Shown: positions 10,841 through 16,498 of the stretch, piece after piece
Layout: each line of letters opens with the position of its first letter
Numbering within the stretch: position 1 is the first letter of the stretch
Assembly: GCA_905181885.1 (NCBI GenBank)
Contig: CAJIZI010000003.1
Location: 248,001-312,000, forward strand
Origin: an uncultured Gammaproteobacteria bacterium
GTDB lineage: Bacteria; Pseudomonadota; Gammaproteobacteria; Nitrosococcales; Methylophagaceae
DNA: 64,000 bases
Direction of reading: 5' to 3'
Program-made: the position numbers and the translations under genes
The notes under the pieces: model-generated
Seen by the model: the letters and a program-made list of their open reading frames with translations, nothing else
Told to the model about the DNA's origin: nothing
Databases searched by the model: none

Positions 10841-10869
10841 TTGACATCCTCCTCAATACCTATTAATCT
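10841..10869 (+). promoter_or_regulatory. Predicted sigma-70 promoter of the B12 riboswitch transcript
   Basis: A perfect -35 TTGACA (10841-10846) is followed after 17 bases by a poor -10 TAATCT (10864-10869). The start of transcription would fall near 10876, just ahead of the riboswitch aptamer. Position, not match quality, is the main support. The preceding 260 bases to greB hold no gene that I can see. Confidence 0.45.
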
Positions 10870-10880
10870 CCTCGTCTCTA

Positions 10881-11075
10881 GGTGCTTTCATATATAGTAT
10901 TTTGAAAGATAATCGGGAAGTTGGTGAAAAATCCAACACTGCCCCCGCAACGGTAATTGAGTTAAACATCTGATAAGCCACTGTGTTTTTTGACATGGGA
11001 AGGCCATTTGTTTTTAGCCTCATTAGTCCGGAGACCGGCCTAGTTCGAGGGACCCTATTGCGGTGGGCAATACTA
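10881..11075 (+). promoter_or_regulatory. Cobalamin (adenosylcobalamin-class) riboswitch
   Basis: The aptamer core is clear: GGGAAG near 10915, GGTGAAAAATCCAACACTGC (10923-10942), CCCGCAACGG, GCCACTG near 10977, GGGAAGGC near 10997, and the B12 box AGTCCGGAGACCGGCC (11025-11040). CCGCAA in the L5 loop (10945-10950) is complementary to TTGCGG (11058-11063) in a small downstream hairpin, which is the L5-L13 kissing interaction by which these riboswitches mask expression when ligand is bound. It lies 100 bases before btuB and should repress btuB, and probably cobO, when B12 is plentiful. The leader also holds a GTCATT/AATGAC hairpin at 11121-11134 just before the ribosome site. Confidence 0.95.
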
Positions 11076-13304: not shown

Positions 13305-13910
13305 ATGATTGATAAACAGTCACAACGACACAAAAAGAGAATGGAACGACAAAAAGCTATTGTCGATGAGCAAGTGCAAAAAGCAGATGACGACAAAGGT
13401 TTATTGCTCGTTATTACAGGTAATGGTAAAGGCAAAAGTTCATCCGGCTTTGGCATGGTCGCACGTTCATTAGGTCACAATATGAAAGTTGGAGTTGTTC
13501 AGTTTATTAAAGGTGCTTTTAGTACCGGAGAAGAGACTTTTTTTAGGCGATTTCCTAATGATGTTGAATATCACGTCATGGGGGATGGCTTTACTTGGGA
13601 TACACAGAATTTAGAACAAGATATTGCATCAGCAGAAGCAGGTTGGGCTGTATGTAAAAAGTTACTTCAAGACCCAACAGTTCATGTCATTTTACTAGAC
13701 GAGCTTAATATTGTTTTAAAAATGAATTATTTGAATACTGAAATGGTATTAAAAGATATTGCAAGCCGTCCTCCTATGCAACATGTCATAGTAACGGGAC
13801 GAGGGGCACCCGATGCTGTGTTGGATGCTGCTGATACTGTAAGTAGAATTGATGATGTGAAGCATGCATTTCGGGCAGGCATAAAGGCACAGAAAGGCAT
13901 AGAGCTCTAA
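13305..13910 (+). CDS. cobO: Cob(I)yrinic acid a,c-diamide adenosyltransferase
   Basis: CobA/CobO/BtuR family enzyme that adenosylates the cobalt of corrinoids to make the coenzyme form. It is 201 residues, with the P-loop GNGKGKSSSGFG near residue 45 and the conserved VVQFIKGAFSTGEE and LDELNIVLKMNY stretches. The N-terminal 40 residues are charged and helical, as in the E. coli protein. It follows btuB by 80 bases on the same strand, so it is likely co-transcribed under the riboswitch. With no corrin-ring synthesis genes nearby it serves salvage (inference). The symbols btuR and cobA are equivalents. Confidence 0.95.
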   Translation: MIDKQSQRHKKRMERQKAIVDEQVQKADDDKGLLLVITGNGKGKSSSGFGMVARSLGHNMKVGVVQFIKGAFSTGEETFFRRFPNDVEYHVMGDGFTWDTQNLEQDIASAEAGWAVCKKLLQDPTVHVILLDELNIVLKMNYLNTEMVLKDIASRPPMQHVIVTGRGAPDAVLDAADTVSRIDDVKHAFRAGIKAQKGIEL

Positions 13911-14248
13911 TCTTTTTTATCTTAACGGAACTTTTTTAAATAGCTATAAAGTTACTAACAATTTCTGTGGATAAGTCTGTGGTTAACTCAACTGTCACTC
14001 GTCAAACTATTTGTATATAGGCGTTCAGCATACATTGTTCACAATTTGAACAATCATGATAAGCTCAATATAATCAATAGGTTAGCAATGTCTTTTATTT
14101 ATCAATAGCTTAGCTATGTTTTGTTAAGGCTAAATAATTATCTGCTTTTTAACTTGAATAACTTTTAAATTGTCAATAGTTATTTTATGATTACTCATCT
14201 GTACATAATCGATAGTGACTACTATTTATCGTAAAAACTTACCTTCTT
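13911..14248 (+). other. Non-coding gap between convergent genes with DnaA-box-like sites and repeats
   Basis: No gene is visible in these 338 bases, which separate the 3' ends of cobO and clpA and so need no promoter. They contain TGTGGATAA (13966-13974, a perfect DnaA box on the minus strand) and TGTGGTTAA (13978-13986, one mismatch) 12 bases apart; a palindrome ATTGTTCA-5-TGAACAAT (14034-14054); two imperfect 19-base direct repeats beginning ATCAATAG (14073-14091 and 14101-14119, 17 of 19 identical, 28-base period), a further TCAATAG at 14173-14179, and a very AT-rich tail. The function is unknown. Confidence 0.5.
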
Positions 14249-16498
14249 TTAGACAGATTCTGTCTCATTTTCAAAGTCGATGATTAATTCACTATCCACC
14301 AGTGTAATTCGAGCATGGCCACCCTTACTTAATTTGCCAAAAAGTAACTCATCTGCCAAGGGTCTTTTTATTTTTTCTTGGACTAGTCTAGCCATTGGTC
14401 TTGCTCCCATACTCTGGTCATATCCGTTTTCAGCAAGCCATTCCCTAGCCTCATCTTCAACTTCTAAGGTTACGTTCTTTTCATGTAATAACATTTCAAG
14501 TTCAAGCACTGCTTTATCTGCAACACGTAAAATAGCAGCTTTAGCTAGAGATTTAAATTGAATAATACCATCCAAACGGTTGCGGAATTCAGGAGTAAAT
14601 GCACGTTTAATAACTTCCATTCCATCAGCTTGATGATTCTGCTCAGTAAACCCCATTGAAGCACGGCCCATTTCATGCGCACCGGCATTACTAGTCATTA
14701 CCAGCACAACGTGTCTAAAATCTGCTTTTCGACCATTGTTGTCGGTTAAAGTACCGTGATCCATAACTTGTAACAATAAATTGAAAACATCTGGATGAGC
14801 TTTTTCAATTTCATCTAGTAATAGGACAGCGTGAGGCTGTTTACTAACCGCTTCTGTTAGTAGTCCACCTTGATCATAGCCTACATAACCAGGAGGAGCA
14901 CCAATCAACCTGGAGACCGTATGACTTTCCATATACTCAGACATATCAAATCGTATAAGCTCAACACCCAAATTATGTGCTAATTGCCGCGTAACTTCAG
15001 TTTTACCCACACCAGTTGGGCCTGTAAATAAAAATGCACCTGTAGGACGCTCAGGGTGCCCTAGACCAGATCTGCCCATTTTGATAGCCGAGGACAAAGT
15101 TGCTATGGCTTCATCTTGTCCAAAGATGACATGTTTAAGATTCTTTTCAAGGTTTCTCAGTGTATCTTTATCTGTGTCATTAACTGTTTTGGCTGGTATC
15201 CGGGCAATCTTTGCTACTATTGCCTGTATATCATTCACCCCAATCATCTTCTTACGTTTAGACTTAGGTAAAATACGCTGAGCAGCCCCAACTTCATCTA
15301 AAACATCTATAGCTTTATCGGGTAAAAAACGATCATTAATGTAGCGATCTGATAATTCTGCTGCCTGCTCTATTGCCGCAATGGTGTACCTTACGTCGTG
15401 ATGTTCTTCAAGCCCTACTTTCAGCCCTTTCAAAATCTTTTTCGTTTCTTCAACAGATGGCTCAGATACATCAATTTTTTGAAAACGTCGCGTTAACGCG
15501 TGGTCATGTTCAAAAATACCTCGGTATTCTTGGTACGTCGTTGAGCCAATACATTTCAATTCACCTGTAGCTAATAGTGGTTTTAGCAAGTTAGCAGCAT
15601 CCATTGCTGAATTGCCTGCAGAACCAGCACCAATTAAAGTGTGAATTTCATCTATGAAAAGTATTGCACCACTTTTCTCTTTAATTTCTCGTAAAAGTGC
15701 TTTTAAACGTTTTTCGAAGTCACCACGATACTTAGTCCCTGCTACCAGTGCTCCCATATCAAGTGAGTAAATCACGGCATCACTTAATATATCGGGTACC
15801 TCATTAAGCACTATACGTCTGGCAAGGCCCTCTGCTAATGCTGTTTTGCCAACTCCTGCTTCTCCTACAAATAAGGGGTTATTTTTTCGTCGTCGACATA
15901 AAATCTGTAATGTTCTCTCAACTTCGTACTCACGGCCAATTAAGGGATCGATCTTGCCTGCAATTGCTAATGTATTAAGATTTGTTGCGTATAACGATAG
16001 TGGATTGTTACTTTCGTTATCGCCCTCACCCTGCTCAATATCGATGTCGGCTTGTAAATTTAATGGCCCTTCGTCTGTACTTTGGCTAATTGCATTCACA
16101 ACATCAAGACGTTTTACATCTTGCTTTTGTAACAAATAAACGGCTTGGGCTTGTTGTTCAGAAAAAATGGAAACTAAAACATTGGCACCTGTAACTTCAA
16201 CGCCAGCTGATGACTGAACATGCATCACTGCGCGTTGTAATACTCTTTGAAAAGCTAGCGTTGGCTGTGTCTCACGCTCACTATCCTCAGCAAGTATAGG
16301 TAAGTTATCACTTAAAAAACCAGTCAACTCTTCTTGCAATATTGTGATATCAACATCACAAGCTTTTAAAACAGTAAGGGCTTGGCTATTTTCGAGAAGT
16401 GCAAATAGTAAATGCTCTATTGTAAGAAATTCATGGCCAGCTTTTCTGGCATGACTAAATGCCTGACTGAGTGTTTGTTCTAACTCTTTACTTAGCAT
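14249..16498 (-). CDS. clpA: ATP-dependent Clp protease ATP-binding subunit ClpA
   Basis: AAA+ unfoldase that feeds substrates, including N-end-rule proteins delivered by ClpS, to ClpP. It has 749 residues, with the Clp N-domain repeats (about 1-145), the first AAA module with Walker A GEAGVGKT (about 210), and the second with GPTGVGKT (about 490) and LLLDEIEKAHPDVFN. The IGAPPGYVGYDQGG loop and the absence of a long middle coiled-coil domain separate it from ClpB. It lies directly downstream of clpS (34-base gap), the classical pairing. Confidence 0.97.
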   Translation of the reverse strand: MLSKELEQTLSQAFSHARKAGHEFLTIEHLLFALLENSQALTVLKACDVDITILQEELTGFLSDNLPILAEDSERETQPTLAFQRVLQRAVMHVQSSAGVEVTGANVLVSIFSEQQAQAVYLLQKQDVKRLDVVNAISQSTDEGPLNLQADIDIEQGEGDNESNNPLSLYATNLNTLAIAGKIDPLIGREYEVERTLQILCRRRKNNPLFVGEAGVGKTALAEGLARRIVLNEVPDILSDAVIYSLDMGALVAGTKYRGDFEKRLKALLREIKEKSGAILFIDEIHTLIGAGSAGNSAMDAANLLKPLLATGELKCIGSTTYQEYRGIFEHDHALTRRFQKIDVSEPSVEETKKILKGLKVGLEEHHDVRYTIAAIEQAAELSDRYINDRFLPDKAIDVLDEVGAAQRILPKSKRKKMIGVNDIQAIVAKIARIPAKTVNDTDKDTLRNLEKNLKHVIFGQDEAIATLSSAIKMGRSGLGHPERPTGAFLFTGPTGVGKTEVTRQLAHNLGVELIRFDMSEYMESHTVSRLIGAPPGYVGYDQGGLLTEAVSKQPHAVLLLDEIEKAHPDVFNLLLQVMDHGTLTDNNGRKADFRHVVLVMTSNAGAHEMGRASMGFTEQNHQADGMEVIKRAFTPEFRNRLDGIIQFKSLAKAAILRVADKAVLELEMLLHEKNVTLEVEDEAREWLAENGYDQSMGARPMARLVQEKIKRPLADELLFGKLSKGGHARITLVDSELIIDFENETESV

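Follow-up and report, generated by a model that had tools for sequence, protein, structure and literature searches.

The gap between the convergent genes cobO and clpA in an uncultured member of the Methylophagaceae very probably carries, judging from its sequence, a chromosomal element of the DARS type (DnaA-reactivating sequence), which would recharge the initiator DnaA. The gap lies at positions 13911-14248 of the window, the stretch of 64,000 nucleotides that was analysed (contig C3, 248001-312000, of genome G000, which comprises 1.50 Mb in three contigs). The geometry of a three-box core, the scores of a sequence profile (R1), the flank motifs of loci selected by DnaA boxes only and a differing order of the parts together point to an element of the DARS type whose architecture is different and widespread. 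The recharging of ADP-DnaA itself would proceed by analogy with E. coli.

Parts of the module in the cobO-clpA gap

The preliminary description had drawn attention to a perfect and a near-perfect DnaA box in tandem, an 8+8 palindrome and repeats with a 28-base period. All of these were found (palindrome arms 14034-14041 and 14047-14054; 22-nt repeats 14073-14094 and 14101-14122, 86% identical), together with a degenerate third box and a further box-like sequence that had been overlooked, the first and last boxes of the gap in the following list.

13305-13910, plus strand: cobO/cobA, cob(I)yrinic acid a,c-diamide adenosyltransferase gene, flank
13952-13960, plus strand: DnaA box I, TTACTAACA, degenerate (three mismatches), reversed relative to boxes II and III
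13966-13974, minus strand: DnaA box II, perfect, TTATCCACA, invariant across the 42-row alignment
13978-13986, minus strand: DnaA box III, TTAACCACA, one mismatch
14035-14043: weak DnaA box, TTGTTCACA, one mismatch from TTWTNCACA, overlapping the Fis site
14037-14051, no strand: perfect match to the Fis-binding consensus, GTTCACAATTTGAAC, within the palindrome 14034-14054, 50 nt past the core
14072-14084, plus strand: match to the IHF consensus, site 1, AATCAATAGGTTA
14100-14112, plus strand: match to the IHF consensus, site 2, TATCAATAGCTTA, 28 nt past site 1
14153-14161, minus strand: DnaA-box-like site IV, TTATTCAAG (TTATTCACN in most relatives with the module in this gap, at +166 to +169)
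14211-14226, no strand: weak stem, no better than shuffles in G000; a strong terminator-like hairpin here in some relatives, before the clpA stop
14249-16498, minus strand: clpA, convergent flank

The boxes of the core start at 0, +14 and +26 with the first one reversed, and this holds alike for the window, E. coli DARS1 and E. coli DARS2. Box I reads mostly TTAC[CT]CACA or TTATTCACA in relatives. The palindrome matches the Fis consensus GnnYAnnnnnTRnnC (PMC4245941), and most relatives have only two-mismatch versions of the DnaA box that overlaps it; site IV of G000 likewise has two mismatches. The repeats led by ATCAATAG had been labelled iteron-like, a label that we abandoned: as far as sequence can tell they are two perfect IHF sites, both fitting the consensus TAAnnnnTTGATW (PMC4245941) on the opposite strand.

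Single DnaA boxes in the window occur at chance level (23 with at most one mismatch observed, 21.7 expected), whereas their fixed arrangement in the gap and its conservation are beyond chance. Perfect boxes are rare, numbering five in the 744 kb of G000 that were sampled, three of them in the candidate origin described below and one in the gap. An Rfam search returned zero RNA matches within the gap, and a terminator consensus scan reached none there. The gene content of G000 provides what a DARS2-type site requires of its host (IHF, Fis and Hda): DnaA is encoded, Hda gave a match above the cut-off, Fis gave one match, and IhfA, the only IHF model used, gave a match above the cut-off and a further one below it at C3:359248. 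The nearest named records to cobO are uncultured Gammaproteobacteria MAGs (98 and 84% identity) and a Methylophaga sp. MAG (81%). Elsewhere in the window, a cobalamin riboswitch (120 bits, 10863-11057) precedes a TonB-dependent receptor gene and cobO, in what looks like a B12-uptake unit.

Conservation of sites A and B within the genus

The module of the gap, here called site A, was present in 24 of 25 same-genus genomes (G000 to G024); the remaining genome, G005, is 73% complete and has neither a site-A match nor cobO. Site A lies downstream of cobO; in G015, where cobO is on a different contig, it adjoins clpA, and in G022 it is split across two contigs. Convergent clpA was found in all 23 genomes readable on both sides, its stop 250-266 bp past the core (by a ClpA peptide motif, the strict version of which was found in 13 of the 23 and a looser version in all). 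The comparison across relatives that the preliminary description had suggested thus came out in favour of its boxes and repeats, which are conserved. On one contig (L038, G010:C37; box II at about 15656 and 16249) site A is tandemly duplicated, a piece of cobO separating the two copies. In G021, G020, G001, G006 and G002, a long terminator-like hairpin of variable stem sequence stands immediately before the clpA stop, recognised in three of these relatives by folding and in two by stem count.

A second site, B, occurs in at least 15 genomes, 13 of them recognised by DNA similarity and two (G013 and G000) by the profile, the other genomes of the genus having been checked by DNA similarity alone. 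It starts 29-43 bp past the stop of a glyoxalase-like gene, which was named by eye and located by a peptide motif, in 14 of the 15; this motif did not find the gene beside site B in G002. Site B is duplicated in five genomes, and G023 has one more pair of modules in a third location. In G000 itself, site B (C3:445861-446037) is degenerate, with TTATACCTA as box I, and likewise lies in a convergent gap.

Flank motifs were counted in 24 site-A copies (23 genomes, with G010 represented twice and the incomplete G022 excluded) and in 20 of site-B type. In all 44, row selection fixed the geometry of the core but left the flank motifs free. The Fis consensus lay at +49 to +51 in 23 of 24 site-A and 13 of 20 site-B copies; in 2000 shuffles it appeared at +50±1 in a mean of 0.05 and 0.04 copies, respectively, and in two at most. 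The first IHF site (+85) was perfect in 14 site-A and seven site-B copies and had at most one mismatch in 22 and 15; for the second (+114), the corresponding counts were 18 and eight perfect, and 23 and 13 with at most one mismatch. No flank-motif count exceeded three in any of the 2000 shuffles. Most site-A copies also have a fourth box resembling TTATTCACN at +166 to +169, and 20 of 23 site-A copies have, at +150 to +190, a box that departs from TTWTNCACA by at most one mismatch; in two of them it lies at +188.

Likeness to E. coli DARS and occurrence beyond the genus

The profile R1 was built from 42 genus copies, after the divergent pair on contig C64 of G023 had been dropped from the 44. 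For its comparison with E. coli, DARS1, DARS2 and datA were placed at the coordinates that we take to be theirs, and oriC at its annotated position. In 62 kb of chosen sequence, R1 scored 24.1 bits at DARS1, 20.0 at DARS2, 13.1 at oriC and 9.8 at datA, the last over 27 positions. DARS1 (bioD-uvrB), the highest-scoring of the E. coli regions tested, has the same core spacing and differs in being without a matching Fis or IHF consensus at +50 and +85; it works in vitro without added factors (PMC5742627).

Both E. coli cores are described as having a common spacing and orientation (PMC5742627), and the gap likewise holds three boxes at fixed spacing with box I, weak in G000, in the opposite orientation. 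The likeness to DARS2, whose core lies upstream of mutH with none between mutH and tas, extends to a flank with two IHF sites and a Fis site and to additional DnaA boxes downstream, the IHF and Fis sites of the gap being consensus matches only. The two differ in order. DARS2 is arranged core-IBS1-2-FBS2-3 with the Fis site as a feature of its own (PMC4245941), its two IHF sites 3 bp apart and, by our scan, in opposite orientation. The gap module, by contrast, has the core, Fis at +50 and then two IHF sites in the same orientation 28-29 bp apart, and neither the DARS2 order nor its conserved spacers were found. We therefore file it as a DARS-type element and not as DARS2. Against the DARS reading stand this order, the three mismatches of box I and the degenerate site B of G000.

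At E<=0.001 (E-values are rough), R1 matched 320 of the 369 genomes of the class examined; the 24 complete genomes had 46 such matches, with at least two in 16 of them. Because R1 includes the Fis and IHF columns, counting these motifs among its matches would be circular, and a set defined by boxes I and II only was used instead. This pattern occurs in 143 of 369 genomes, and the reversed pattern in none among the matches listed. The set comprised 90 of the first-listed loci, a non-random choice, of which 89 were counted after L302 had been removed for its short tail; related genomes among those compared are not independent. Box III was within two mismatches in 79 of the 89. The Fis motif lay at +49 to +53 in 45 (shuffles: mean 1.05, maximum 5) and was missing there in 44, and an IHF motif with at most one mismatch lay at +83 to +88 in 57 (shuffles: mean 0.57, maximum 4) and was missing in 32. 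Both were present in 35 loci, either in 67 and neither in 22. Five of these 22 carry a Fis or IHF motif displaced by about one helical turn. Such displacement was noted in L287, L288, L290 and L309, with both motifs affected in L287 and L288; at a few sites Fis and IHF had moved together, to +40 and to +74 or +75, respectively. A single IHF site is the rule in this set, and the second tandem site is typical of the genus studied here.

In a draw from the phylum, R1 matched 173 of 249 genomes, class members included; since matches occur outside the class, this is not a clean taxonomic negative control. Seven of 20 places outside the class come from one family (f200), and all seven have the core and a Fis motif at +50 or +51; among the other 13, the core was found in 11 and a Fis motif at +49 to +52 in six. 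Four phylum genomes outside the class (L268-L271) show a GC[CTA][TC]A-N5-TAGGC palindrome exactly 50 nt past a weak core. Two named Alphaproteobacteria genomes gave no R1 match, and five Marinomonas genomes gave weak matches in four and none in the fifth. A Methylophaga genome (G627) was not independent of R1. DnaA sites are unusually clustered on a contig of Methylophaga sp. 41_12_T18, where six module-like R1 matches fall inside 17 kb (G628:C16:11156-28469).

Alternative readings, proposed mechanism and implications

The preliminary description had seen in the gap something reminiscent of a replication origin, a DnaA-titration site or an integrated plasmid origin. What stands of this is the look of a DnaA-binding replication-control site with conserved boxes and repeats; neither an origin nor a plasmid relic is supported. 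As in oriC, AT-rich DNA occurs here together with DnaA boxes and with sites for IHF and Fis, and one weak R1 match in another genome (E 1.3e-4; G082:C1:1932299-1932443, at the extreme contig end) directly adjoins dnaA, where an origin region perhaps resembles the module. The GC-skew check, however, which had been proposed for the gap, led elsewhere. In the sampled stretches of G000, the skew turns from negative to positive on contig C1, with the cumulative minimum along a flat stretch at 528-556 kb, whereas in the window it is mostly negative and does not turn at the gap. An AT-rich gap at about 528.6 kb on C1 (528.5-529.0 kb) has five DnaA boxes with at most one mismatch, three of them perfect; R1 finds no match in it, and it is likely to be the chromosomal origin. 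By eye, this candidate (C1:528500-529000; about 3500-4000 of L114) lies between priA-like and folA-like genes. The module of G000 thus has the location outside oriC of a DARS. In the 24 complete genomes, 44 of the 46 R1 matches lie at least 75 kb away from dnaA, with one adjoining it and one on a second contig. That the gap is the chromosomal origin or a second one is accordingly very improbable.

Short repeats with a 28-bp period could also be the relic of an integrated iteron plasmid, but they fit the IHF consensus, and site A is present in 24 of 25 genomes, keeping one syntenic place beside clpA in all 23 that could be read through. As the preliminary description had already remarked, no replication gene is near: none was recognised by eye in the open reading frames of 8-22 kb, where an iteron origin would have a Rep gene beside its repeats. 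We give this origin of the gap practically no credence, and the same holds for an ordinary intergenic gap with chance boxes and terminators. The chance level of single boxes and the terminator-like hairpin of some relatives would suit the latter, yet the module is rigidly conserved. A datA-like or pure titration site, at which IHF-dependent binding would store DnaA or stimulate ATP hydrolysis, is unlikely but deserves more weight. datA, too, is a cluster of DnaA boxes with an IHF site (PMC4245941), and every DARS binds DnaA as well. Against this, the head-to-head spacing of the core is of the DARS type (PMC5742627), R1 ranks datA far below DARS1, and the Fis site belongs to DARS2 (PMC4245941). 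The action of datA is opposite to that of a DARS (PMC4245941).

On the DARS reading, ADP-DnaA would occupy the core of three boxes, with a head-to-head arrangement on boxes I and II. DNA bending by Fis, 50 bp further down, and by IHF, at one or both of the tandem sites, would fold the complex. In the folded complex DnaA would release ADP, and apo-DnaA would depart, load ATP and become competent for firing oriC. This follows the E. coli model, in which ADP is lost in the DARS complex and apo-DnaA reloads ATP (PMC5742627), and protein binding and nucleotide exchange at the module are proposed by analogy with it. The fixed spacing of the module fits the effects of shifted sites in E. coli DARS2, where a 5-bp shift did more harm than a 10-bp shift when the IHF sites went rightward or the Fis sites leftward, and leftward IHF-site shifts of both sizes were equally harmful (PMC4245941). 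Its position between convergent genes agrees with the harm that transcription across a DARS is reported to do in E. coli (PMC5010248). In that species weak boxes overlap the Fis region, and ATP-DnaA bound to them displaces Fis (PMC8682772); one may speculate that the same happens at TTGTTCACA. Many copies carry the Fis palindrome as TGGTTA-N5-TAACCA, the halves of which are DnaA-box-like.

According to a review, many proteobacteria have conserved sequences resembling DARS1 and DARS2 (PMC10380432); the spacers of DARS2 are reported to be conserved among beta- or gamma-proteobacteria close to E. coli (PMC5742627), and DARS2 has been compared among seven E. coli-proximal species (PMC8682772). A full-text literature search, its scope not extending to the original DARS paper (Fujimitsu 2009) or to the Kasho 2014 supplement, found no description of the core-Fis-IHF order or of a Methylophaga DARS. 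We tentatively suggest, as a reading that is plausible though not quite probable, that DARS elements of Gammaproteobacteria (perhaps of Pseudomonadota) ancestrally had a core followed after 50 bp by Fis and after another 35 bp by IHF, often in more than one copy per chromosome; that the order in E. coli DARS2 arose from this by rearrangement; that the box-like halves of the Fis palindrome form a competition switch in which ATP-DnaA evicts Fis; and that the joint shifts by about one turn reflect selection for helix face. Should the fixed module prove general across the class, it would make the sites that control replication timing readable in hundreds of genomes and provide a natural experiment on the spacings and orders that are functional. 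It would also open a route into the evolution of initiator recharging, including in a 1.5-Mb genome in which one box and a second site seem to have eroded.
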